From positions 180,039 to 244,038 of the forward strand of contig JAAOMT010000096.1 of NCBI GenBank assembly GCA_016748015.1: a stretch of DNA of 64,000 bases, written 5' to 3'. Each line of letters starts with the position of its first letter. The stretch's first letter is position 1. Positions 10,275-60,275 of the stretch are shown one piece after another. Source of the DNA: Geosiphon pyriformis. Taxonomy: Eukaryota; Glomeromycota; Glomeromycetes; Archaeosporales; Geosiphonaceae. Below the pieces are notes generated by a model, which was not told where the DNA came from, did no database searches, and saw nothing but the letters and a program-made list of their open reading frames with translations. The position numbers and the translations under genes were made by a program.

Positions 10275-10392
10275 GAATTGTACTTCTTTGGTCAGCCAAG
10301 ATTTTAGCCTTCCGTTGTCAAATTTACTGAGGTTTTAATTTTATCATCGTTCAAATTTTAAGAAATAAGAAAGCGTATTACCCCTTGAAAAA

Positions 10393-10881
10393 ATGAGATT
10401 AATTGTGGCAATTAGTTTCTTCTTTGTTCTTGTTCTCTTTGAAAGAACTTATTCAATAGCTTTAGAAGGGAATGATTGCGTAATCTGCACCCAACAGGTC
10501 CCACAATGCCCAGCTACTTGTCCAATGAATCAAGAATGTACAATCATTGGGCAAACGTGCACTCAATGCTCACGAGCGGTCTGCCAAAACTCATCTACCG
10601 ATCCCCCCAAAGAAGAGCAATGTTTAGCTTGCTCAAAAATATATCGACCTTGCCCAAAATGTCGTAAAGGCCATATCTGCGTTCGTCATCCTCAAACTTG
10701 CAACAAGTGTGAAACGGTCACATGTGAGCCAGATGTTTCCCAGCCTGATCATGGTGCTTGTGTAAATTGTTTGGCTGAATGTCCGCCGGATTATTGTAAA
10801 GGGGGCTTGGTCTGTGTGGTTGTTGGCGCTAATTGTAATAGTTGTGGGCGGGCTGTTTGTCGGGCACCCAAGAGTGAGTAT

Positions 10882-17100: not shown

Positions 17101-20100
17101 CGATTCAAATTTAAACCTTTCCAAGCTTCATAGCAAGATTGATACTGAATTTCAACAAAAGGAACAAGCCTTGTCAAAACGACATTTAGAAAGGATTTGT
17201 ACTGAGGTCGAACTCAGATATCCCACCGGAGAAAAGCTAATTATTTTAAACCTGGAAGGTAATAGTAAAATAATTATACATATTTTTTGTCCTTTTCGAA
17301 AAATTTTAATCACTGAATTCATTCCTCATTTACAAATATAGCAAATTCACCATACTCATACCGTCGTCATTTTAAAATGCTTCGTGAATTCGAAGTTGTT
17401 CGGCCTGCTTTGCTTCGCTTCACAATTTATACGACTCAATTGAGTGCAGAGGATAATATGCAACTCGATAAAGATCATTACTTTATACCACAACCGCGCT
17501 TGCATTTTTTTGGAAGAAATTTGGAAACTTCATTTGAGCTTGATCCTGAGGCATATGAACTGAGGTTGCTTTGGCTTGAATTTTGTTTTCGAAGTTTTAT
17601 CACCAACTCACTTGATTATTTTTTTAGACACATAGCACAATTAGAAAATAAAAAGTTCCTAGTATTTCTTTGGCATAAATCGACCCACAGGCTTGAGATT
17701 TACTTTGATACAATTCAACGGCTGCCTAAGACTATTCACGATCAATCTCCGTTGAAAAAACTCAATACGGGTGAACACTTCCTTTTAGCGGTTAATGAAC
17801 CTAAAGGTTTAATAGCCATATATAACACTGAGAGGGCTGTGGTATGCATAGGTCACTTTTGAGTCGTCTGTAAAAATTATTACCTGCATGAAATTAACCC
17901 GTTATCTTATTGTTTTCTAAGCTCAATACTTATGGCTTTGAGCAAGAGCAATCGAGTCTCTATTTGCATTATCGCAATATACAACTGTTGCATTGGTATA
18001 ATGATGCGATTCCCGAAATATCACATTTTTTCTTCATTAAAAACACCGAGGATATTTGCTTTGTAGAGAAGGATGGTAGAGCCAAAATTTATAACTTGGT
18101 AAATGACAATTTTCGACCTGGAATTTCTCATTTTCCGGCAAACTCCAAGAAAGTCATGAGCACCCCTGATGGCACGTGTATCGTCGCTTTTGTAAAAGAG
18201 CGAATGAACATATCTTTTGGGAGCCATCAAGATGAAATCGAGGATCAAAATGTGCCAGACGAATGTGACTCGTCAACAGACACTGCTTCTGAGGATGAAC
18301 CGATAGCTAATGGTTTGGAGGATGAAGTTTTGAGAGATTTAGCTGGTGCAGAACCTGATGTCATAGGAAAAGAAGTAGATAATTATATCGCCAAGGGGTA
18401 TATATACTTTTGCGAGAACTTTACACGAGATGCTAATAAAATTGTTGAGATTCCATTACTGAATCCTTCAATTGAAATTTTCGAGTTTTCCATGTTTGAT
18501 AAACGACAAATCCATCTTACAACAATCGATCAGGAAAAGGGTATTTTCCATTCAGCCATGGTCAAAATGACTCACGCAAAAACTCAATACAGATTTGAGC
18601 GCCAGTCACGCAACAAATCTTTGGGTCAAATCAAATTAGAAGGCCGACGACCCTTTACAATTCATGGCAAAGGCACAAAATTCATGCGTGATATTCGCAT
18701 CGGGGACTATTTGGTTTTGGGCCAGGAAAAACGACAAGTAGCTGAGATTTTGTCAGACACACTCCTTAAAATATCCCCTCAGGCTCCTCAATTTGTCAAA
18801 TTTGAATACGGCGTATGGAAAGATTTCGGCATTGAACAAAGAAATACAGTTAATGGACTGATCGATGTTTACTCCATGGTATTCACAAAATATGCCATCA
18901 ACAGCCCAATCGGTCGTGTAGATCAACCTTTGACGCTGACTATTGTATTAGAAATTTCTCCCGAGAATCCTTTGAATTTGAAAGAATGCCACAAAAGATT
19001 CCGAAAATATGTGGATAAAATGTTTTTGAAGTTTAAAAAAGACACGAAAAAACCAATTGGCCATTTGAAACATTTTAATACTAACTTCACGACTTTCCAA
19101 GCATTTGATAATTTCGAGGTACATGCTAACACGTACCAACTCGGCGAGTAGGTTTCCCGATTGTTTTCTTTGTTCACTGCCATCGCTTTGTTGCTTTCAG
19201 TGCTGGTCAAACTTAAAAATCTTCACTGAATATGTACAACAGATGGATGGTCGATTTCTTTTGCTTGATTCCTCTTCAGATCGCTGTTGCCCGAGATAAT
19301 GAATTCGTTCCATTGCAAGATGGTCTATTTTCTCTTGATATCGAAAAACCTTCATTAGATGATGGATATGGATTCATTGGCAGCGTCAGCAAGGCTATTT
19401 CTTTTGGTTGGTACGAGGCCATATTCGAACATTATGCTAATCTAGAAGTGAAAGTTGTTTCATCAATGGGGGAGCAATCATGTGGTAAGTTTTATTATAC
19501 GCCGTGAAAATTTCCATTGAAAATATCGTCTGATGTTTTATTTTTGAAATCGAAAAGGGAAAAGCTATTTATTAAATCATTGTGTCGGTTCAACCTTTGA
19601 TGGATCTGCAATGGTTTGTTTAGAGTGGTATATCAACTTTGAAATTTAAAAATGGTATTAAATTTGCTTCAAATCAATTCTCCAATTAGCGTTGTACTGA
19701 AGGCGTTTGGATGTCTTTGGGTGAGTATTAGTCAATCTATGTTCAAAGTCTTTTCTACTCGTAAAAACTTAGTCGTAATATAACGATGATTATGCTTCTC
19801 GACACTAGTCAAAACCGACGACGTTCTTTATGTAGCGCTTGATTTTGAAGGTAGGTAGATTTTTGAATTTCGCACCTTGAATTAATAGCTTTCAAATTCA
19901 TGAAAATCATTTACAATTCCAGGACTTGCCAGTATCGAAAGAACGCCTCAAGAAGAAACCTTTTTACAACTCTTGAATGCTGCACTTTCTAACCTTGTTT
20001 TGTTCAAAAGTCAATTCGCCGTGAGTCGCGATATCTCAACAATGTTTCAACGCTTTCAGGACGGGACGAATTATTTTGGTGATGATCCAGACATTTTCCA

Positions 20101-23100
20101 GGTGATGAATATTTAACTAGTTTAAACTTATTTTCCTTTTGAGATGGATTTAATCCTCACGGTTTGCATCTTCAAAATAAATTTCAATGAATAGGCAAGA
20201 TTTTGTATTATTATTAAAGATGTAGCACGGTCAGATCGAGAAGATATTGTATCCGAGTTTCAGTCAAAGTTTTCAAAAATCGTTGACAAGGTTCGTCAAA
20301 GTGTTGAATTTTCTCTTTTAAAATATGAACGAATAAAATTCTATATATTTGAACACTGCAGGAAGAAGAAGATAATTTCATAACAAAACTCTATCGCAAT
20401 GAAATGAGCATTGTCCCATGGCCAGTTTTCAATGAGGCTTCCTTTTACACAACTTTTAAGCAATTGAAGGTTAAATTGGATGGACAAAATTCCAAGTATA
20501 AGAATGCACGAATTTTTGTTGAAAAAATTAAGGTAAATTTAAGAATAAGAATTACTGAATCTTCACATGTGCACCATGTTTAATTAACAACTTAAAATTG
20601 TGGCTTACAAGGTTCTGATGACAAAGCTAAAGTACAGTAAACTATTTTGCTTCTCTTTAGTTGCTTTATTTTTACTTTGATTTAATTTGCTTTGATTTTC
20701 GTTGTATATTCAGAGTTTGCGATTGGGGCAGTGTCCAAGCAACATTAATTACTATGCGCACTTTGGAATTGAAGAAATTTTTGAAGGATGCAATATCATG
20801 TGGATTTGAGCAAAAAGAAGATTTTGAGATGGATATTTCCGCCGACAACACAGTATCAAACACTAATCCATTTGAAAATCAATCGACATTGAATACCAAA
20901 CACCTTATGGTATATTTCGAAATTTATTTAATCGTTTTTTTTGCAAAGTAGCTACTGGAGCTTAGAATTTGTCACTTTATTAGAGCCGTGACGATGGCCA
21001 ATTAATTCCTGACCCAGAAGTTTCACTCGTTGAAATATTTCATGACATTGAGAATGACTCAACAAAACTAATGCCCGATGCTGGCTTGGTTTTATTGAAG
21101 GATGGGATGACGCTAACAAACCTTTCCTCGGGTTAGTAATATAATATCACTATCAATTATAATTGCCATTTTATAACTCGTTTCGCAAAACTTACCTTTT
21201 CTTTATTTAATGCGCAGATCTGAGAAGCTTTTTTGAGGAAAAAGTACAACCACGTGGTCAGATTCCCGATTCTCAATGGCTAGAGGAACTCGAGATTTTT
21301 GTCAAATTTATTATTCAAAGGCGCATCAAACGTGTACAGCAATGGTTTGCACGAAACACTAATCGCTTCGAGAAGGAACAGAATGAAATTGTTATTACAA
21401 ACTATGCACTCGAGCAAGAAATCAGCAGACTAAGTTTATTCTGGAATTTTTGTCGTCTTCGATGTAATGATTGTGGGCTTTTATGTATGAAAGCGAGTCG
21501 TCACAGTGACAACGAGCAAGATATGACTCATGACTGTTTAACTGATCACAAATGTCATTCAGAATGTCAATTCAGCGAAGCTCATTTAGATCAGACTATA
21601 CCAAAATGTAATAAGTTTGCAGGTCACGAGGGTCGTCATGCTTGTGAACAAAGTCATGCCTGCGGTGCTCCTTGCGTTTATGATGGGAAAAGAAATTGCC
21701 AGTCAAGATGTACTAAAGACATTGGCCATGAGTCAAATAACGGAAATGAAATTCATTTATGTGAGGCTACACGTCATTATTGTGGATCCCCATGTTCATT
21801 GAAGGCCGAGACACAAAAGGGGGAATACGAATGTCATAATACTTGTATTGTAAGTTTCTATCTCAAGTTTTTCCTTCAAAGTTCTTAAAAGCTTATTACA
21901 TTTATTTCTTCTTAACTTAATTTATCAAACAGATTCCATGTGAGGAAGTGCATTCAGTACATAAATGTGAAAACGAAGTTTGCCCTATTGAATGTCCAAT
22001 AAGCAATTGCCATCGGCGGTGCGAAAGCAAAGAACATTTTCATGACCTAGAGGGAAGCATTGACCATTTTTGCGGGTAAATAAAAATGGTTCTAAATGAC
22101 CAATAAAAATTACCAATTTGGAGATCTTATTTTTTTCCCAACTTTATAATAATTTAGTGGAGAGCATCAATGTGTCGAAAAATGCGAAGAAAATGGGATC
22201 TGCAAGATTATTACTGAGCCAACAGCCATTGTAAAAGAGGAAGCTGAATATGTCAACAAATTTGGGAGTTTCATGTTTACTAAAGTAAAAGTTTTTAGTT
22301 TGAATTTAATTAAAAATCTGCAACTGTTGTTATATTAAGGCTCAGCTAATTAAATTACCGCTTGGAAAATATTTAGTATTCCCAAAGCCCTGAACGACTT
22401 CCATGCTGTATTAAAATTCCTCCCTACAAATTCAAACATGATGGAAAACATGTACATGAAGAAAAAAAAGAACATAAATGCTCTCGAGATTGTCCGTCTG
22501 ATATGGGGCTCCACATAAAGGAGGAGGATAAAAAGCAATACAATTTTCATTATTGCAATGTAAAATGCCCAAATTGCGGTTATTATGTAAGGTTTCATTT
22601 TAAAGTAATTAATTTATGATTTTTGAACACTCTTAATCGTTTTAAATTTACTTCAGTGTATATCACCATATGATCATGGCCGGGATTGCAACAGCAAGCA
22701 TGGTAAACAAAAATTTCGATATAACTTTTGAAGTTACCAAAATTTCAATTTATAATTTAATCAAATATGGAATTTCTAATTAGCCACTGTACACGGAAAT
22801 ATGTATTTGACAACTTTCACCTGCGAAGAAGAAGAATTCGAATTTGAAGGTAACTTAACCCTATAACATAAAAAGAAGACCTTGATCATATTGCATTATG
22901 CATTCAAGAAAAGTCACTTTATGTAAAATCTTCAACTTTAGGACATCGATTAACTGTTGGAGACCATGGTGATTTTGTTCTCTGTCATAAAGTGGGTGTT
23001 AAAGCAAATTTTAAGTTTTAGTTATTAGTTGTATCCAGAAAGTAATCAAATTGAATTGTTCTGTAGCTTTGTGAAAACATAGGCAGGCATCGTCATATCG

Positions 23101-32152: not shown

Positions 32153-33001
32153 ATGGGCCTTCTAAAATTAAAAGTAGAAGAATTAAGGCATACTATATCT
32201 GATCAGAATCTCGAATCGCTTCCTGATTACGAGGAAAGAATCGCTGTTCTGCGAAAGCTCAATTCAAACAATATCTTCCTATGATAGATTAATTCAGCGG
32301 ATGAATTGATTATCACCGAATTAATACTTGATAATATCTTGGGTGACTTCAAACCTGAGGAGATTGTGTTTTTACTCTCTTGCTTCTTATTTCAAGAAAG
32401 AAAATAAGCGAACCTACCTTGACATACCATTTGGAAATGGTATGATGGCAGAATCAGGTACAATTAACCAGAAAAACTAAAATTAATATTTTTATTAGGT
32501 TAAAAGAAAATTATACTTGATGTTACTCAACATGTTGGAGAAATACAGAGCAAATGTGAATTACCTATTGGACCCAAAGATTACGTTTGTGAACTCAATT
32601 TTGGGCTTGTGGAAGTAGTATATGAATGGGCTAGAGGAATAGTAAAATTATCATATTTACTCTTGGATTAATATCATATCTAATTAGATCATCTCTCTAA
32701 TACAACCTCCTCGAAATTAAAGACCTTTAAAGATATTACCCAACTTACGGATATTTTAGAAGGCTTAATAGTACAATGTATTACTCGACTTGACGAAACT
32801 TGCCGCGAGATAAGAAATGCTGCTAAAATCATTGGTGATTCATCTTTATATAAAAAGATGGAAAATACGCGAGGCTTGATCAAACGCGATATTGTATTTG
32901 CTGCTAGTTTGGTAAGCCAACTTTGTTTGAAGGAAATATTTATTTGTTTCATGATAATTTGACCCTATATATATATATAATGTTTTTTGTAGTATTTTTG
33001 A
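32153..33001 (+). pseudogene. 3' fragment of a Ski2-type RNA helicase gene (DSHCT domain)
   Basis: The C-terminal DSHCT region of a Ski2/Mtr4-family DExH helicase can be followed in order: HTISDQNLESLPDYEERIAV, NSADELIITELILDN, PEEIVFLLSCFLFQERK, SEPTLTYHLEM, VGEIQSKCELPIGPKDY, LNFGLVEVVYEWARG, then after an 81-base intron (32642-32722) FKDITQLTDILEG, ITRLDETCREIRNAAKIIG and LIKRDIVFAASL. A last intron (32913-32992) leads to codons Y-F-stop, as in intact Ski2. Frame changes and stops occur at about 32283, 32405, 32440 and 32515, and the helicase core is absent. The intact enzyme feeds RNA to the cytoplasmic exosome. This copy is a truncated, decayed duplicate; a functional gene presumably lies elsewhere in the genome. 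Confidence 0.85.
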
Positions 33002-34831: not shown

Positions 34832-36132
34832 TCAACATATCCCCATTAAATAGCCGAAATATGGACCAAAGTGTGGCTCTAGTCTTAAATTATTTGGTGC
34901 TTGAGAAATTTGTGCCATTTCGTTGCATTCCTTTTATATAAATGGAAAAATTATGTCATATGAAGTTAAAATTTCTAGAAAATTTAAAAAGTTTAAAAAC
35001 TATCACCTTGGGCTCTTCAAATCTCTGTAAATATTCATTCCAAAATTCTTTACATGCATAAAGATTAAAATGTACTGAATTTATGTCAGAATTTTTTGAG
35101 ATAGATGGATCTGAGCATTCGCAATCTTGTTCAATCCAATATTCATACGCAGAATGAAAATATCCTTTTAAATCTTCGCTTCTGGGAGGCATTTGTGGGA
35201 TAAAATCATCTTGATAGGTGATCCGGTATATAGCTATCCAATCATTTAAAAATCTTGATAAAGGAAGTTCTCCCATTCGTGGTTGACCAAATGTAAAGAC
35301 AGATATCAATCTAGTATTCAAAATTCTTGAGATCCTGAAAGCACCTATGATAGCGTAAACTCGAAAAGAAGAAGAGCCAGGAAATATAATTAAAGTCTGA
35401 AATATGCGGCTATATAAAATTATAACTGTAAATTAAATAAAAAGCTTACCACCACCTTCACCATGACCGGTTGTGATTATCGCGTACTTAAGAATGTCTA
35501 TTTTTCTAACCAAACTCTTCATCATTTTCTCTATTTGTGGCCAGGCTTCTTCAAATGAATTCCACCAAAATTTATCCGCTTTATATTTGTAAATAATTGG
35601 GATGGGAATTAATACATTTTCTCTGTTTTTCCATTGATCCACACTCAAATTCATCCGTCCTCGAAAATAAATGATGATTTCTTTAGTTTCCTCCAGTTTT
35701 ATTGCTTTAGCTATTAAAAATTAAAAGACATCAATGTAAAATCAAGTTCTTATAAATGCGTCTTGTCTTACCCCAAACAAATGGCCCTTTTCTATCAGTT
35801 GAATCTTTCAAACAATAAGCTTTTTTGGCGTATTGAGCAAATTTCTTGAATGTAAAAAGAAGAGGAGGGTTATAATTAAGTCCAAGTAGCCTCTTATTTG
35901 ACCACCGGCTTTCTCGAGGAAATAAATTTATCGTTGAAGCATTTTTCAAATATTCCTGATTACTTTTGTAAAGTTTCACAGGACTTGAAATTTGACTTTC
36001 AAATGTCTTGAAAATTTCTGTTTTTTTCTTTGGCAATCGATTAAGTGAGAATAATGTAACCAAGCTTAAAATTAATAACAATATGTAATAAGATTTAAAT
36101 TTTCGCACCGATGATAAATTGAGAAAGCTCAT
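34832..36132 (-). CDS. Class-3 (fungal) lipase-like membrane-anchored protein with Ser-to-Gly nucleophile change
   Basis: Four exons in transcript order: 36132-35772, 35710-35450, 35359-35007, 34930-34832; all junctions GT-AG and in phase; 357 residues. Residues about 14-32 form a signal peptide or signal anchor (YYILLLILSLVTLFSL). The Lipase_3 fold is recognisable by IIIYFRGR, the EEAWPQIEKMMKSL helix, the nucleophile elbow at 202-207, VFTFGQPRMG (228-237), the acid-residue region DDFIPQMPP (Asp259) and a C-terminal HFGPYFGYLMGIC with His345. The elbow reads GHGEGG where active lipases have GHSxGG, so the catalytic Ser is Gly204. Asp and His are kept. The gene is otherwise intact. It is either a pseudoenzyme or uses altered chemistry. 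Exon 4 is short but supplies the conserved His and terminal Cys, which supports the model. Confidence 0.85.
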
Positions 36133-42175: not shown

Positions 42176-45100
42176 ATGCATCTCCCGCTTGACACTAAGA
42201 AAAAAGCTGGTGAATACCTGAAAATTCAGATTCGCCCCATGAATTTTACAATATAGACAACTGCTCATCACATTCTTTTTTTTTTGTCGAAAAAGAGGAA
42301 CCTACCTCGGTTTTGGAATCGATTTTTTTTTCCACTGAAGAAAAAAATGAAGCTGAAATACAATCAAGTTTACACATAGCCACAAATACAGCTGTTACTT
42401 CTTCCCACCCGTCTTCACCCGACAAAACTCTTCTTAATGAAGAAGATTTGACCAAAGGTATGATAAAATATATAATTACTATTTCTACAATCACAGCGTA
42501 GGATACAACTTTTGACAAAAGTGTTTCATAAAGACCAGAAACCTGTCGATATTGACTCTTCATCTGAAGAAGATGAAGGAGTTGTCACAGATGAGATGGA
42601 TATCGACCCTCTTGAACAAAAAAATCATCAAATTAATGGCGAGAGCGCTAGCAGTCGTGATTTCTGTGAATCAATTCCCGGGCTTTATCGTCTACTAGAC
42701 CTTTGCAAAGACGAAGGGTCAAATGGTCTTGGTATGTGATTGCTTTCTGAGATTCTTCATTATTAAGCTTGGATTTATATTGACTGTTAATTTACTCTTA
42801 AATGTCCATAATTTCTAGTTGATAAAATTATTATTTCTCAAGAGTTTGTAAAGAAGCTTTGTAACGAGATCGTACCAAACAGTTTCAAATCAATTTCAAA
42901 AGTCAATTATAAAAAGCTAAATTCCAAGGCGATTTCCCTTGTTGGAGTTTATGGTCGGAACGAAATGATTGCAAACTTTCTTTTGCACCAAAACATAATT
43001 AACCATTCAATGTAAATTTCGGGTTTTCCCAGTCAAGTTTTTTCTTGATTTAATGGGATGAACTTTTTACGCTCATAATTCCTTCAATCTTCTATTCTTA
43101 GTCATGGATCGCTCCTTAACAAAACTTCCCAAACAATAAATCAAGGGGGATCTGATGAGGAGCTCGATACCCTGCGACCTGGAATCTATCTTTTACGTAA
43201 CCCTCTCAGATCCAATGCTTTCAATCCTGCTAAACTTCAATTTTTAGTCATACATTGGAGCGAAGAAGGTTGTTATGAAGATTTGGCATCTTCTCATCGA
43301 AAGAAAAACTTGACCAATATGCATCGGTATGCTTTGTCAAAGTTCATGGGATTCTCTTTAATTTCAGCTTAACTAATATCTAAAGCTAATGTATTTTTAT
43401 TATCAAAAGTTATCTTACCAAACTGACGGAACATCAAATTTGTTTAATGAATGAAAGAGATTTGGAAAATATTAATTGGCAGGTTTTCGGCAAGGAATTT
43501 GACGACGATGAAAAGGAGTCTGATGAGGAAGATCAAAGTGACGATGATATCTGCTATGATTTTGAGGTTACAAAGAGACAAGAACAAAAAGAAGATTTTG
43601 AGCTTTTCCCGGGATTTGAGGTGTTTAATTTTTCTTTTTTTCTATCCTAAAGAAACTCAGGTCCCCTAATAGATTTAACTCATTCCAAAATTGATTCCTC
43701 GCCTTTTGAAATATACAAACCTTTATTAGATGCAATTACCGAAAAATATGACTCGTGAACATATTCATCAGAACGAGCAATCTGGAAACCTGGGTCTGGA
43801 TTCTCTTATCGTTGAATCTGTTACCAATCAAACCTTTTTAACGCGAGAGATTGTCCCAGCAACCAAAGTAACCGAAAAAGGACCCATACATTTTGACTCG
43901 GAAATCAAATTTCGCGAATACTTCGAGAGTAAACTTGAAAAGCAAAAATGCGCCCTTTTTCTAAGTCGTCAACTAAAAATGCGAGAATTGGAAATAATCG
44001 TCAAGGATGGATTGAATCTGCATGATCTTTTCACACCTTTAGAGGATGAATTGAAAGTTTTGGAGAAGGAAAAAAATAAGGCCAAGATAAAGCAAAGAGA
44101 AGATCTAAAACAAGATGCAAAACTTGTTGAAAAGATGGGATGGGTGCTTTTAAAAGTTCCCTATGGGTAAGATATTGGAAATTCCTTGAGTTAAACTCCG
44201 TATCAAAAACTAAAAAGAACTGTTTTCACAGTGGCTTCGAATCACTCTTGCAAAAGGATATGGAAAAGATGCCCGAATCTGGTATATTCAATTTTCTTAG
44301 CTTGTTAAACCTTTTCTTTGATCTGATTAAAAGACAAAAATCTTTAAAATCAAAACATTCCGAAACCTCAATAAAGGTATAAAGCATGGCCAAAATGAAG
44401 GACGAACTGAGTCACCAAACCTATCATCTGGTTCGAGCAAAGGAGAAATTCAAACTGAGGTTGCGGCAGAAGATTTAAATCATGAAGCTAGTAAGAAAAC
44501 CAAACTTTGGAACTTTTTCTAAATGAAACGATATTTTCTAATTTTAAAAACATTTTCTTATCTCTAAAATTTCAACTTAGTGGCTGAATATATAAAAAAA
44601 AATTACTCGGATATTCTGCCAAAACTTGGAGCAGCTATTTCTAATATCAACTATGAACCATGGTCTGAGATAAAATGCCGCTTAATCTTTGCAAGGGAAT
44701 GTGTTGAGTGGTACTCGAAGAATTGGGAAAACTCAGCCGATGAGCCAGCTCCAACTGTATCACAAATATTTTTCGATAAAGAAAGGAGCATGTTCAATTT
44801 AGTAAAAAAATATATCAAACAATCTGAGGAAGGTGTAACAAAAAGGTTTTTTAACTTTCTCACCGGAACTAAAGCGCTATATGTAGGAGATATTTTGGAC
44901 AGTGTAAAGAAAGAGGTCAAAAACCTTGGAGATGTTGACTTTGTACGTCAAAAATTGAGCCAGGAAGATGAACTTATTGTGGATGCATTTTTTGATGAAT
45001 ATAAGCGTTGGCGAAAACATATTTTTCCAAATAACTTGAAAAATGTCATCCAAACAATCGATACAAGTTCAAACCTTTCCAAGCTTGATAGAAAGATTGA

Positions 45101-48100
45101 GACTGAATTTCAACAAAAGGAACAAGCCTTGTCAAAACGACATTTCGAAAGGATTTGTACTGAGGTCGAACTCAAATATCCCATCGGAGAAAAGCTAGTT
45201 ATTTTAAACGTGGAAGGTAATAGTAAAATAATTTTACATATTTTTTGTTCTTTTCGAAAAATTTTAACCTCTGAATTCATTCCTCATTTACAAATATAGC
45301 AAATTCACCATACTCATACCGTCGTCATTTTAAGATGCTTCGTGAATTCGAAGTTGTTCGGCCTGCTTTGCTTCGCTTCACAATTTATACGACTCAATTG
45401 AGTGCAGAGGATAATATGCAACTCGATAAAGATCATTACTTTATACCACAACCGCGCTTGCATTCTTTTGGAAGAAATTTGGAAACTTCATTTGAGCTTG
45501 ATCCCGAGACATATGAACTGAGGTTGCTTTGGCTTGAATTTTGTTTTCAAAGTTTTATCACCAACTCACTTGATTATTTTTTTAGACACATAGCACAATT
45601 AGAAAATAAAAAATTCCTGGTATTTCTTTGGCATAAATCGACTCAGAGGCTTGAGATTTACTTTGATACAATTCAACGGCTGCATAAGGCTATTCATGAT
45701 CAATCTTCATTGAAAAACCTCTATACAGGTGAACACTTCCTTTTAGCGGTTAATGAACCTAAAGGTTTAATAGCCATATATAACACCGAAAGGGCTGTGG
45801 TATGCATAGGTCACTTTTGAGTCATCTGTAGCAATTATTATCCGTATGAAATTAACCCGTTATCTAATTGTTTTCTAAGCTCAATACTTATGGCTTTGAG
45901 CAAGAGCAATCGAGTCTCTATTTGCATTATCGCAATATACAACTGTTGCATTGGTATAATGATGCGATTCCCGAAATATCACATTTTTTCTTCATTAAAA
46001 ACACCGAGGATATTTGCTTTGTAGAGAAGGATGGTAGAGCCAAAATTTATAACTTGGTAAATGACAATTTCCGACCTGGAATTTCTCAGTTTCCGGCAAA
46101 CTCCAAGAAAGTCATGAGCACCCCTGATGGCACGTGTATCGTCGCTTTTGTAAAAGAGCGAATGAACATATCTTCTGGGACCCATCCAGAAGAAATCGAG
46201 GATCAAAATATGCCAGACGAATGTGACTCGTCAACAGATACAGATTCTGAGGATGAACCGATAGCTAATGGTTTGGAGGAAGAGCCTCATGTCATAGGAA
46301 AAGAAGTAGATAATTATATCGCCAAGGGGTATATATACTTTTGCGAGAACTTTACACGGGATGCTTGTAAAATCGTTGACATCCCATTAGCACACTCCTC
46401 GATTGAAATTTTCGAGTTTTCCATGTTTGATAAACGACAAATCCATCTTACAACAATCGATCATGAAAAGGGTATTTTCCATTCAGCCATGGTTAAAATG
46501 ACCCACGCAAAAACTCAATACAGGTTTGAGCGCGAGTCACGCAACAAATCTTTGGGTCAAATCAAATTAGAAGGCCGACGACCCTTTACCATTCATGGCA
46601 AAGGCACAAAATTCATGCGTGATATTCGCATCGGGGACTATCTGGTTTTGGGCCAGGAAAAACGACAAGTAGCTGAGATTTTGTCAGACACACTCCTTAA
46701 AATATCCCCTCAGTCTCCTCAATTTGTCAAATTTGAATATGGCGTATGGAAAGATTTCGGCATTGAACAAAGGAATACAATTAATGGACTGATCGATGTT
46801 TATTCCATGGTATTCACAAAATATGCCATCAACAGCCCAATTGGTCGTGTAGATCAGCCTTTGACGCTGACTATTGTACTAGACATTTCCCCGAATAATC
46901 CTTTGAATTTGAAAGAATGCAACAAAAGATTCCGAAAATATGTTGACCAAATGTTTTTGAAGTTTAAAAAAGACACGAAAAAACCAACCGGCCATTTGAA
47001 ACATTTTAATACTAACTTCACGACTTTCCAAGCATTTGATAATTTCGAGGTACATGCTAACACGTACCAACTCGGCGAGTAGGTTTCCCGATTGTTTTCT
47101 TTGTTCACTGCCATCATTTTTTTGCTTTCAGTGTTGGTCAAACTTCAAAAATCTTCATTGAATATGTACAACAGATGGATGGTCGATTTCTTTTGCTTGA
47201 TTCCTCTTCAGATCGCTGTTGCCCGAGATAATGAATTCGTTCCATTGCAAGATGGTCTATTTCTTCCTGAAATCGCCAACAATTCATTAGATGATGGATA
47301 TGGATTCATTGGCAGCGTCAGCAAGGCTATTTCTTTTGGTTGGTACGAGGCCATATTCGAACATTATGCTAATCTAGAAGTGAAAGTTGTTTCATCAATG
47401 GGGGAGCAATCATGTGGTAAGTTTTATTATACGCCGTGAAAATTTCTATTGAAAATATCGTCTAATGTTTTATTTTTGAAATCGAAAAGGGAAAAGCTAT
47501 TTATTAAATCATTGTGTCGGTTCAACCTTTGATGGATCTGCAATGGTTTGTTTAGAGTGGTATATCAACTTTGAAATTTAAAAATGGTATTAAATTTGCT
47601 TCAAATCAATTCTCCAATTAGCGTTGTACTGAAGGCGTTTGGATGTCTTTGGGTGAGTATTAGTCAATCTATGTTCAAAGTCTTTTCTACTCGTAAAAAC
47701 TTAGTCGTAATATAACGATAATTATGCTTCTCGACACTAGTCAAAACCGACGACGTTCTTTATGTAGCGCTTGATTTTGAAGGTAGGTAGATTTCTGAAT
47801 TTCGCACCTTGAATTAATAGCTTTCAAATTCATGAAAATCATTTACAATTCCAGGACTTGCCAGTATCGAAAGAACGCCTCAAGAAGAAACCTTTTTACA
47901 ACTCTTGAATGCTGCACTTTCTAACCTTGTTTTGTTCAAAAGTCAATTCGCCGTGAGTCGCGATATCTCAACAATGTTTCAACGCTTTCAGGACGGGACG
48001 AATTATTTTGGTGATGATCCAGACATTTTCCAGGTGATGAATATTTAACTAGTATAAATTTATTTTCCTTTTGAGATGGATTTAATCCTCATGGTTTGCA

Positions 48101-51100
48101 TCTTCAAAATAAATTTCAATGAATAGGCAAGGTTTTGTATTATTATTAAAGATGTAGCACGGTCAGATCGAGAAGATATTGTATCCGAGTTTCAGTCAAA
48201 GTTTTCGAAAATCGTTGACAAGGTTCGTCAAAGTGTTGAACTTTCTCTTTCAAAATATGAACGAATTAAAATGACATTTATTCGAATAATACAGGAAGAA
48301 GAAGATAATTTCATCACGAAACTATATCGCAATAAAATGAGCATTGTTCCATGGCCAGTTTTCAATGAGGCTTCTTTTTACACAACTTTTAAGCAATTGA
48401 AGGTTAAATTGGATGGACAAAATTCAAAGTATAAAAATGCACGAATCTTTGTAGAAAAAATTAAGGTAAATTTCACTATGGTAATTTGTTCTCTTAAAAG
48501 CATTGCTATAATTGACTATGCTCTGTCTTTAATAATAACTCTCCCTTACAAGGTTCTGATGACAAAGCTCAAGTTCAGTAAAATTTTTGTACTTTGCTCA
48601 TGCATTTTTTGATTTTTCTTTAATTTAATTGGTTATATTTCTTTTGAATTCAGAGTCTGCGATTGGGGCAGCGTCCAAGGAACATTATTAACGATGCGCA
48701 CTTTAGAATTGAAGAAATTTTTGAAGGATGCAATATCATGTGGCTTTGAACAGAAGGAAGATGCTCTACATGTTGAGCTGGATTTATTTGAAAATCATTC
48801 TGCACTGAATATCAAACATCTTATGGTAATCTTTTAATATAGCTTTATGAATTAGCTGTTTAGCTTTAAAAACTGGTAAAGCGTTATTGAATTCTTAGAG
48901 CCGTGATGATGGTCAATTAATTCCTGACCCAGAAGTTTCGCTCGCTGAAATATTTGATGAAATTGAGAATGAATCAACAAAACTAATGCCCGATGCTGGC
49001 CTTGTTTTACTGAAAGATGAGTCAACGCTTACGGACCTTTCCTCAGGTTAGTAATATATTTCCCAAATCAAATAACTATCCATAGGAATTCTAATTTTTA
49101 TCTTCTTGTAGACCTGAGAAGCTTTTTTGAGGAAAAAGTACAACCACGTTGCACGATTCCTGATTCTCAATGGATAGAGAAACTCGAAAATTTTGTCAAA
49201 TTTATAATTCAAAGACGTATCAAACGTGTACAGCAATGGTTTGCACGAAATACTAATCGTTTCGAAAAGGAACAGAATGAAATTGTTATTACAAACTATG
49301 CACTCGAGCAAGAAATCAGCAGACTAAGTTTATTCTGGAATTTTTGTCGTCTTCGATGTAATGATTGTGGGCTTTTATGTATGAAAGCGAGTCGTCACAG
49401 TGACAACGAGCAAGATATGACTCATGACTGTTTGACCGATCATAAATGTCATTCAGAATGTCAATTCAGCGAAGCTCATTTAGATCAGACTATACCAAAA
49501 TGTAATCAATTCGCAGGTCACGAGGGTCGTCATGCTTGTGAACAAAGTCATGCCTGTGGTGCTCGTTGCGTTTATGATGGGAAAAGAAATTGCCAGTCAA
49601 GATGTACTAAAGATGTTGGCCATGAGTCAACTAGCGGAAATGAAGTTCATTTATGTGAAGCTACACGTCATTATTGTGGATCTCCGTGTTCATTGAAGGC
49701 CAACACACAGAAGGGGGAATATGAATGTCATAATACTTGTATTGTAAGTTTCTATTTCAGGTTTTTCCTTCAAAGTTCTTAAAAGCTTATTACATTTATT
49801 TCTTCTAAACTTAATTTATCAAACAGATTCCATGTGAGGAAGTGCATTCAGTACATAAATGTGAAAACGAAGTTTGCCCTATTGAATGTCCAATAAGCAA
49901 TTGCCATCGGCGCTGCGAAAGCAAAGACCATTTCCATGACTCAGAGGGAGGCATTAACCATTTTTGCGGGTAAATAAAAATGGTTCTAAATGACCAATAA
50001 AAATTACCAATTTGGAGATCTTATTTTTTTCCCAACTTTATAATAATTTAGTGGAGAGCATCAATGTGTCCAAAAGTGCGAAGCAAACGGGATCTGCAAG
50101 ATTATCACTGAGCCAACAGCCATTGTAAAAGAGGAAGCTGAATATGTCAACAAATTTGGGAGTTTCATGTTTACTAAAGTAAAAGTTTTTAGTTTGAATT
50201 TAATGAAAAATCTGATATAAGCCCCAGCTAATTAAATTACCGCTTGGAAAATATTTAGTATTCCCAAAACGATGAAAGACTTCCATGCTGCATTAAAATT
50301 CCTCCCTACAAATTCAAGCATGATGGAAAACATGTACATGAAGAAAAGAAAGAACATAAATGTTCTCTAGATTGTCCGGCTGATATGGGGCTCCACATAA
50401 AGGAGGAGGAGAAAAAACAATACAATTTTCATTTTTGCAATGTAAAATGCCCGAATTGCGGTTATTATGTAAGGTTTTATTTTAAAGTGATGAATTTGCT
50501 ATTCTGTCATGATTTTTTGAACATTTTTAATCATTTTAAATTTACTTTAGTGTACATTACCATATAATCATGGCCTAGATTGCAACAAGGAACATAGTAA
50601 AGAAAACTTTCCATTTTTAAATTTTTAAAATTTCCACAATTCAGTTTATAATTTAATGAAACATGGAATTTCTTAATCAGCTACTGTACACGGAAATATG
50701 TATTTGACAACTTTTACGTGTGAAGAAGAGGAGTTCGAGTTTGAAGGTAAATAATCAATTTTGATCAGTCTTCGAGTTAGAAAGACCTTATTCATTTTCT
50801 AAAATCTACTATTCACCATTTTAGGACATCGGTTGACTGTGGGAGATCGTGGTGATTTTGTTCTCTGTCATAAAGTGAGTATTAAAGCAACTTTTGTTTC
50901 TTAATCATAAGTTTATCTAGCAAGTAATCAAATTGAATTTTTCTGTAGCTTTGTGAAAACATAGGCAGGCATCGTCATATCGATTACTGCAAAGATCCTG
51001 ATGTTTGCAAAACCCACGGTGGATTGAAAAAGGAAGGAATCCTTGAACACATCAATGGTAAGAAAATACTATGGAGCTTTTAAAATTTTCATACCCAGAG

Positions 51101-52380
51101 TGAAATTAATGAATTTTTATGAAAATAGCCAGTATCAGCCCAAACCCTAATCGACAGAAAGATTATATTTCCCACAAAGTCTATTGGGAGCGAACTAACT
51201 TCCAAGGTAAGTTTTTGCTTATTCCATGAATTGTTGCTCTACTTAATACAAACTTAATAGAGAACATGTAACATTGCTTTAAGACCCATACTCTAAAGAT
51301 GATCGAGATATTTTCAAAAAATGCGATCATGAATGCAAAGATGAGAAACATCATAAGACTGACGCCGTTACCGGAAGAGATCCTGTCAGATCATTTTGCA
51401 CTCAAGATATCTTCCATGCAAACCTAGATCATACAAAGGCTCCTCCTGGAAATACTGGATATGTTACAGTAGACGGTCATCATTTTGCCTGTGATAATCC
51501 GATAACAAATATTGGAGACTTTCATATTATATTTGTGGTTGATAGAAGCGGCTCAATGGGTGGCACGGATTGTCAACCTCGTTGTAGCAGTACCAAAACG
51601 AGTGCACTCATGCTTTCTCATAAGAATCGGCTCGGAGCTGTATATGAAGCTTGTTATTCATTTATTGAGACGCGTAAAAATTCTCGTAAAAATATAAGTG
51701 CTGGCCAATCAGCCATTGATCGTGACACAGTATCTCTTGTACTCTTTGATAGCGGGGCAATAATACCATTTCAGAATCAAAGTCTCTCGAACTCTGACGA
51801 ACTTTTGCGAATTATGAGGCAATATCACCCATCGGGTGGAACCTCTTATCAAGCAGGAATACTGAAAGTTGCTGATATAATTAATCAAGATCATGACCCC
51901 ACAAGGTAAATTCAGTCTTGATCTTACGATTCTTTTCATAGTTTGGATTTATTAAAAAAGCAAAAAATTTTCTCCAGGACAAATATCGTTCTTTTTTTAT
52001 CTGATGGTGAAAGCTGGGGGAGTTCTCATGATCAAGAATTGAGAAATTTATGTAATCGGGAGGCGAGCCGAGGGTAATTTTACAATGATGCTGAGTTATG
52101 ACTGTATTCAATCGTTCATGCTAAAAGGAATATTTCATTTGCATCTCTTTAAAGCTCCCCATTGTTCTTGTATACGGTTTTGTTTGCGGCCGATGGACAT
52201 AGCGGTCAATCACTCAAGACCATGGTTAATATTGCGAATCAATATCATCCAACAAGCAACGTAAAAGACGGTCTCAAATGTCAGTATGCGTTGGCAGTAG
52301 ACGAAATCAAGCTCGCTATGCATTTTGCACATGTTGCCGAAAGTTTACGCAAACATCAACCTATGTTATTCAAGAAATGA
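42176..52380 (+). CDS. Giant GBP-like GTPase / Cys-rich / vWA protein, copy B, intact
   Basis: 34 exons, all GT-AG and in phase, 2,510 residues: 42176-42209, 42296-42457, 42522-42731, 42819-43011, 43102-43326, 43410-43620, 43730-44166, 44232-44281, 44377-44490, 44581-45216, 45300-45799, 45880-47078, 47175-47416, 47490-47545, 47622-47652, 47741-47782, 47855-48033, 48127-48222, 48295-48465, 48553-48572, 48654-48825, 48899-49046, 49112-49743, 49827-49969, 50052-50178, 50259-50468, 50551-50596, 50681-50746, 50825-50874, 50949-51057, 51129-51206, 51284-51905, 51978-52073, 52155-52380. Seen in order: an N-terminal part with a degenerate G-like fold (SLVGVYGRNEM), acidic and coiled-coil stretches, a beta-propeller-like middle, a GB1-type GTPase (GEQSCGKSYLLN 1400-1411, TEGVWM, DFEG 1445-1448, KD 1515-1516), a Cys/His-rich zinc-binding-like region (about 1790-2270) and a vWA domain with MIDAS residues DRSGS (2283), Thr2383 and Asp2413. 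GBP-family proteins oligomerise on GTP in membrane defence or remodelling; the role here is unknown. Confidence 0.9.
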
Positions 52381-58306: not shown

Positions 58307-60275
58307 TTACCCCTTGCTTGATTTCTCTTTGTCGATCCATCTCTGTATAGCTCTACGAGTTTCTATGGGTTTTGGTACAGCGATACGTCGCATCATTGTT
58401 GAAACAGAACCTTGAGACATTTTACATGTATCACTATTAGATAATGCAATTATTTCTTCGGCGATATGTGATTGGGTACATTTTGGGTTATCAAGACGAG
58501 GAGTGGCATATTTAATGAATTCTTCGATCAAGTCATGATCTTCTGGTTTCAGCGGTTTTGGGGTATATATATGAGTTTTAGCTTCTCGAAACCAATCAGC
58601 AGCAGAACCGCTTCGATGTGCAACACCATTCAAGAAAAAACTGTGCAGGGTGGGGCCAGTGGTTGTTGGTAAATCATCTCTCAGTTGATCCATAAAGGGT
58701 TCAAGAGCTGAATTTGGCTGATCAAGAGTCGAAAATTGATAAGGAGTTGATGGTCGGCCTATAGGGGATGGTGATTCATTAAATATATTGTGCGGATAAT
58801 TCGGAAAGGCCGATATGGTTTTCGCTGATGTTTTAGTTTGTTGTTGAGATGATGCCATATCAAAAGTTCCCTTTTCTAATTGCGGCACCACAATTATAGT
58901 TTCTTCCCAACGATTTGTTAATTTTCCCTTTTCTTTTCCTGGATGCCCTGCTAAGCGTCGCTTTTTTGTTGTAGGAATCGAGGCAACAGTAGATTGTGAA
59001 ACAGCCGTGCTTTGTGACATAGCAGTGGACTGAGAGGCAATGGTATCAATTGTTGATTCTCGTTTAAAGGATTTTCGTGATTTGAAGAACCCATTCATAT
59101 TCTTCGCCTGCCCTCTACTGCTCAATTCAGTTGGTGAACTTGAAATTTGTGTGAAAGTCGAATTCCCCATCTGAGGAATAGATTTAGGAGCATGAAACAT
59201 TGAGTCGTTAGGTGAGATTTTTGCGACATCTGTCAAAATCGTATCAATCTGTGGAATTGTTATAAAAGTTGAGTTGATCCGAGGAACTGGTACATAATCT
59301 CTGGGACTGTCAAACTGTGGACTTGAAGATGGGGATGTTTTGAAAGTTGAATCGATTTTGGAAAGTCGGGGCGTGATTGGTAAATCAAAAGAACGTTCCT
59401 GAGATACTACATCTACAGGGTTTGCTATTTCTGCAACTTTTATAGCGTTTTGGGTGTTTGAAACAGGTTCATCCCATCTGCTCATAATTAGATTTGGTAA
59501 AGAGTTTTTCTCATTGATAATTGATTTTTCGATTTTATTAATGGCAGAATTTCCCGAAACATCCATCCATATATCAAGTTTATTTTCATTTGTTTCTTCC
59601 TCGCTGATAATTTCCCTAGTCTTTTGATAGCCTTGTTCAACGTGTCTTTTTTCTTTAATTTGCCTTCCTGAAAAATTTTCTTCAGCAGATAGGTTTTCTG
59701 GCTTCTCACTGTTCGATGATACCGATTCTTGTGTTACTTGTGAATATTCAAGAGGCAAATTTTCAATTTCAAATTCATCGGTATCAGTTTCAAATTTTGG
59801 TCTAGGTCTCTTTTTATGCCGCCTATTCTTTTGTATTCTTTGATATTTCACCCGTGATCTTTGCTTAAAGTTCTCGAAATTTCTTTCAGCAGGATTGATT
59901 TCATGGGGTAAAAGGTGAATTGATGAATTTGTCAAGTTATTGAATAAGTCTTCAGGCAATTGTATACACATATCATCGGGTAGAAGCCCTTTTAATTCGT
60001 CAACTTTTTTTGCTGCATAACGTAACGACTCACTTGCATTCTTAAATGCTTCACCGGCAATTTGATAGGCTTTTAATACCTGAGATTGACGTTAATTAAT
60101 TTAGTCCAGCAGTGAAAAATCATTATTAAAGGAGAAATCACCTTTAAGAACTTTTGTAAAGGCTTACCTCATTTGTCTTTGCTACTATTTCTTCATGCAG
60201 AAGCGGTTCTTCACTTTCGCTTTCTGAACTTGTTTCATTTTTCCAATTTTGATCACTTTCTGTTCCTTCACTCAT
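58307..60275 (-). CDS. Large disordered protein with C-terminal CUT-like helix-turn-helix
   Basis: Two exons in transcript order, 60275-60168 and 60079-58307, joined in phase 0 (GTAAGC...CTCAG); 626 residues. The N-terminus is acidic (ESESEEPLLHEE), followed by an Ala/Lys-rich helix (AGEAFKNASESLRYAAKKVD). Residues about 90-500 are low-complexity and Ser/Thr/Pro/Lys-rich, with a basic patch near 406-420 (KKRRLAGHPGKEKGK) that may be a nuclear localisation signal or AT-hook-like. The C-terminus (about 555-620) is ordered: an acidic helix, then TQSHIAEEI and MSQGSVSTMMRR, then RAIQRWI. The SQGSVS turn and spacing recall the CUT/POU-type DNA-binding fold, though homology is not proven. I infer a nuclear DNA-binding regulator. 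The start at 60275 is chosen because the intron then joins two coding-like exons without a stop. Confidence 0.75.

Follow-up and report, generated by a model that had tools for sequence, protein, structure and literature searches.

GBPs and GVIN1, known from animals, are immune GTPases that coat bacteria. GBP1 forms antimicrobial coats on bacteria (PMC11746146), and GVIN1, described with two large GTPase domains, forms a coat on Burkholderia (PMC11974893). The giant protein predicted from the Geosiphon pyriformis gene studied here (g2) differs from GVIN1 in having one P-loop motif in its 2,504 residues; a degenerate second GTPase domain is possible. Like the VLIG/GVIN/URGCP proteins, it is of giant size and its G domain matches their profile (PF25683) best, and the RCT-x-G context of its G2 motif is common to the genome's own VLIG-type pair. 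Unlike them, it reaches only 37.5 bits on that profile against a cut-off of 55, and it adds a Cys/His-rich region and a vWA domain.

GBPs (PF02263) share with g2 the motifs GKSYLLN, TEGVWM and D-x-E-G-L and account for its PDB matches, but the g2 protein is about four times larger and carries KD where GBPs have RD. No profile of the GBP C-terminal helical domain matched anywhere in the g2 protein, and the CaaX prenylation site of GBP1, GBP2 and GBP5 is absent from its C-terminal end, HQPMLFKK. Atlastin/Sey1/RHD3 proteins (PF05879) show weak similarity in the G domain (E 1.9e-5), but g2 falls below the profile cut-off and has no candidate transmembrane hairpin. MIDAS-type vWA proteins such as midasin, Rpn10 and Ssl1 have in common with g2 the vWA fold profile and the MIDAS residues; to our knowledge, none of them is linked to a GTPase of the g2 type. 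We found no paper on this architecture or on fungal VLIGs in a searched literature that lacked most subscription journals, and automatic annotations of a GTPase-Cys/His-vWA architecture in other fungi may exist. As modelled, g2 encodes one giant protein that unites a single GB1/RHD3/VLIG-group G domain, a region rich in Cys and His, and a vWA domain of the MIDAS type.

Gene model, copies and family history

The window, meaning the whole stretch of 64,000 nucleotides that was analysed, corresponds to C259:180039-244038, and the genome searched comprised 124.7 Mb in 406 contigs. A search of this genome with the G-domain part of g2 yielded two further long copies: g1, a tandem paralog in the same window, and a copy near 33.2-42.6 kb of contig C402. 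The features of the two window copies are as follows.

42176..52380 (+): complete gene g2; splice-aware model with paralog correction, dN/dS below 1
42176..45522 (+): N-terminal region of g2, exons 1-11, an acidic/low-complexity start followed by a fast-evolving stretch; no Pfam match
45586..47078 (+): middle region, exons 12-13, rich in predicted beta strands; no Pfam family
47380..48363 (+): G domain; Pfam, PDB matches, dN/dS
48364..49347 (+): linker, second half helical (low-confidence prediction); no Pfam family
49348..51513 (+): Cys/His-rich region, 485 aa; enrichment, motif list, conservation
51514..52380 (+): C-terminal vWA domain; PF13519, PF00092, MIDAS residues
14139..24503 (+): tandem paralog g1, 35 exons, 2,509 aa, all domains intact; alignment, corrected model

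A splice-aware Viterbi gene model, trained on the region's long open exons, recovered the start of g2 at 42176 and its stop at 52380 on the forward strand. Paralog-based correction gave 34 exons and 2,525 aa; the final model has 35 exons and 2,504 aa (~280 kDa) and no internal stop, after recognition of an in-frame 63-nt intron at 45523-45585, which was taken as an intron because the C402 copy carries indels and stops there. A retained intron (48223-48294) and a small exon (48553-48572) were corrected through the three-copy alignment. An alternative frame, VGQTSKIFIEYVQQMDGRFLLLDSS, at 47135-47212 was rejected: substitutions in the C402 copy hit third positions of the WMVDFFCLIPLQ frame, and that copy has an indel just upstream of the acceptor. 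The sequence-only reading had described a soluble, one-gene fusion of G domain, Cys/His-rich region and vWA domain, with 34 exons and about 2,510 residues. It was right on coordinates, strand and the order of domains and roughly right on size, and the fusion is supported by both the gene model and the paralogs; its exon count stands after paralog correction and rises to 35 once the 63-nt intron is recognised. Solubility agrees with the finding of no candidate transmembrane segment in g2 (highest 19-residue hydropathy, 1.53).

Neither g1 nor the C402 copy had been noted in the sequence-only reading. The g1 protein is 88% identical to that of g2, has the same exons and contains no internal stop. 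The C402 copy is 72% identical to the g2 protein over the aligned part and largely shares the exon chain from the third exon on; its N-terminal region is shorter, and it may carry a small lesion around the sixth exon. These copies bear on whether the locus could be an artefact, either two or more genes joined in error or a decaying pseudogene. The gene model is known from DNA alone, some donor sites are weak, and the g1 and g2 models are least secure in the first one or two exons. However, the exon chain recurs in g1 and, in large part, in the C402 copy, neither window copy has an internal stop, mismatches between g1 and g2 are in excess at third codon positions (180/148/304 for positions 1/2/3), and their dN/dS is 0.34, making an artefact highly improbable.

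Nei-Gojobori dN/dS between g1 and g2, computed with the 34-exon model as were all overall and regional values, was 0.34 over the whole length; by region it was 0.02 for the G domain, 0.19 for the Cys/His-rich region and 0.4 for the vWA domain. The overall value for g2 versus the C402 copy was 0.32. Constraint on the g2 protein is strongest in the G domain, the N-terminus evolves faster, and the copies differ most at residues 1-117 and 518-721. Neither the N-terminal 900 residues nor the strand-rich middle matched a Pfam family, and AlphaFold models of two single contiguous exons, built from two-row alignments, were unusable (mean pLDDT 43 and 32).

Exons of g1 and g2 are 91.6% identical and introns 85.5%, and the divergence is a mosaic: stretches that are 97-99.6% identical, even in their introns, are interspersed with others at 71-80%. 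In the G-domain part (47079-48222 versus 19147-20290), exons and introns are 97-99% identical, with introns at 97.6%. Such a pattern suggests that the tandem copies have undergone gene conversion. Since conversion-like tracts lower dS locally, the windows in which dN/dS exceeds 1, containing just 0.5-2 synonymous changes, are no evidence of positive selection, of which pairwise windowed dN/dS gave no reliable sign. Judged by these comparisons, both genes look real and under purifying selection over most of their length.

Two decayed fragments with many stops were found at C251:94.1-95.7 kb (-) and C402:262.7-264.0 kb (-), the latter adjoining ORFs that on inspection resemble hAT-type transposons. 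Beyond this genome, no relatives were found in the viral contigs scanned, in the prokaryote genomes scanned with two peptide patterns, or by tblastn of phages. As reconstructed from these copies, the family is low-copy, small and partly tandem, with duplication, conversion and loss in its history.

The G domain and its relatives

In g2, the G1 motif GEQSCGKS (47401-47497) is split by an intron and is followed by G2 TEGVWM (47628-47645), G3 LDFEG (47770-47856) and KD (48139-48156). The first three are present in all three copies, and KD, retained in g1 and g2, is replaced by TD in the C402 copy; the motifs on which the sequence-only reading had based its GTPase are thus borne out. Pfam ranked URGCP_GTPase first for this domain (PF25683, E 1.6e-9), in an alignment spanning only about 72 residues. 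RHD3 came second (24.7 bits against a cut-off of 42.4) and GBP third (E 1.5e-4), the latter passing its cut-off by 0.4 bit (21.5 versus 21.1 bits) over profile positions 17-140 of 264. A PDB search with the G domain matched only GBP2, GBP1 and GBP5, GBP2 giving the best E value (1.2e-4). The profile search proposed with the earlier reading thus assigns the segment to GTPase families, but to call it GBP-type is too narrow: membership in the GB1/RHD3/VLIG group stands, whereas the URGCP/VLIG profile outranks that of GBP. From the Pfam ranking, the PDB matches and the motifs, we conclude that the predicted G domain is a real, divergent member of the dynamin superfamily within this group, with no single family passed firmly.

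Other GTPases of the same genome help to place it. A VLIG/URGCP-type pair lies at C327:478.7-483.9 kb and C146:179.4-184.5 kb (~1,590-1,630 aa as modelled), and with 94.7 bits on PF25683 the C327 member exceeds the Pfam cut-off. The genome also has G domains of the GBP type, above the cut-off of PF02263, at C360:794760-795155 (-) and C280:35206-35913 (+). In profile-profile comparison, the g2 G domain matched the VLIG-type pair at 96.1% (E 2.9e-9) and the GBP-type domains at 94.1% (E 1.3e-7), which would put it slightly nearer the former, an order that is only indicative given the shallow profiles. A separate Sey1/RHD3-type gene at C291 has exons scoring up to 85.8 bits. Given this true VLIG-type pair, the GBP-type G domains and the separate Sey1 gene, we regard g2 and its copies, on sequence grounds, as a distinct low-copy family.

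The RHD3 match raises the possibility that g2 encodes a GTPase of the atlastin/Sey1 kind, acting in membrane fusion or shaping. This seems improbable: the match falls short of its cut-off, the g2 protein lacks a transmembrane hairpin candidate, and a separate Sey1/RHD3-type gene is present at C291. Because the genome has this gene of its own, the membrane-fusion half of the earlier proposal, which had offered immunity or membrane fusion by analogy, is weakened.

The Cys/His-rich region and the vWA domain

The 485 residues preceding the vWA domain contain 45 Cys and 42 His, and their sum of 87 compares with a maximum of 57 in windows of the same size from 2,000 shuffles of the protein; the dense stretch, put at some 450 residues by the earlier reading, is therefore confirmed. 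Across the three copies, 84 of these 87 residues are identical, as against 302 of the 398 others. Motifs of the form C-x4-9-H-x-C-x2-4-C recur in the region: five stretches fit C-x3-9-H-x-C-x2-4-C, four of these have the tighter form C-x(4-5)-H-x-C-x3-C, and C-x2-C pairs lie on the flanks of the array. The pattern is compatible with zinc binding. Metal sensing, at which the earlier reading had hinted, would be inference only, as a zinc-compatible pattern does not make a sensor.

By eye, the four tighter motifs look like an NFX1 core, and their recurrence could mark g2 as a giant in the style of RNF213 or NFX1/ZNFX1, ubiquitin-ligase-like or RNA-related, in which the Cys/His-rich region would be the business end. 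However, the region matched no Pfam family up to E 10, including zf-NF-X1 (PF01422), RING and RZ, so the NFX1-type zinc fingers suspected earlier did not materialise, and we consider such a protein unlikely.

The C-terminal vWA domain exceeds the cut-offs of both PF13519 (5.1e-11, 43.6 bits) and PF00092 (2.3e-7, 31.6 bits). Its MIDAS residues (D-x-S-x-S, T and D) are complete in all three copies and read DRSGS, SGGTSYQ and LFLSDGE in g2, as the sequence-only reading had held.

Possible roles and neighbouring features

The combination of an intact G1-G3 and KD set, in the part of the protein under the strongest constraint, with a complete vWA domain and MIDAS, together with the profile order (VLIG/URGCP, RHD3, GBP) and the profile-profile lean towards the VLIG-type pair, is perhaps best explained by a GTP-assembled scaffold. 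Its likeliest role, which we put forward tentatively and by analogy, would be cell-autonomous defence or dealing with structures that are damaged or foreign, such as intracellular bacteria or fungal viruses. In such a scaffold, the G domain would bind and hydrolyse GTP and would dimerise or oligomerise when loaded, as in GBPs and GVIN1; the Cys/His-rich region may use zinc to fold into a stiff stalk or an array for docking; and the metal site of the vWA domain may serve to hold a protein ligand. Target recognition, or regulation by a target, could fall to the variable N-terminal and middle regions, and GTP-driven assembly could then cover an intracellular target with a soluble coat or scaffold. 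Because the GBP helical domain and CaaX tail are absent, the protein would have to be anchored in some other way for any step at a membrane or in a coat.

Alternatively, g2 may encode a scaffold in the cytosol that is regulated by GTP and serves an everyday process such as trafficking, the cytoskeleton or protein quality control, with the vWA domain and Cys/His-rich region serving protein-protein contacts and no part in defence. This is nearly as likely as the defence reading. The other vWA domains found by profile in the genome sit in housekeeping-looking proteins (by inspection, a midasin-like giant, Rpn10-like and Ssl1-like proteins), and purifying selection over most of g2 fits such a role, but a low-copy, duplicated and partly pseudogenised family would be unusual for a core housekeeping scaffold.

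By analogy with GBP and GVIN1, a role in defence is plausible, and one in organelle quality control is a further possibility. The family shows tandem duplication, relic pseudogenes, conversion-like mosaicism and an N-terminus that evolves faster than the G domain, much as defence families under birth-and-death evolution do, though such a pattern is not specific to them. The defence profiles of PADLOC, a prokaryotic library, gave no match. A more specific version is doubtful: a fungal family for cell-autonomous defence against intracellular bacteria or viruses that couples a VLIG/GBP-type GTPase to a target-binding module of its own, made up of zinc repeats and the vWA domain. If true, it would extend GTPase immunity of the VLIG/GBP kind to a fungus and represent a single-protein sensor-effector design. 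The presence of VLIG-type, GBP-type and giant GTPase-Cys/His-vWA proteins in one fungus-like genome makes the age of GTPase defence (pre-animal versus separate origin) testable, and likewise the means by which a fungus could keep intracellular bacteria in check.

The window as a whole has low GC content and an intron-rich gene structure, which together with its Opy2-like ORFs are in keeping with a fungus. Between g1 and g2 lies an exon (32684-32959, +) with DSHCT, the C-terminal domain of Ski2/Mtr4-type helicases, followed by class 3 lipase exons at 34959-35720 (-). Downstream of g2, an open frame of 594 aa (58310-60091, -) is without a Pfam match. Upstream of g1, two Cys-rich ORFs (395-829 and 10369-10881, +) share a 300-nt identical block that takes in their start and sequence upstream of it; the second of them matches Opy2, and a 15-nt unit forms a tandem array of 9.2 copies at 863-1001.
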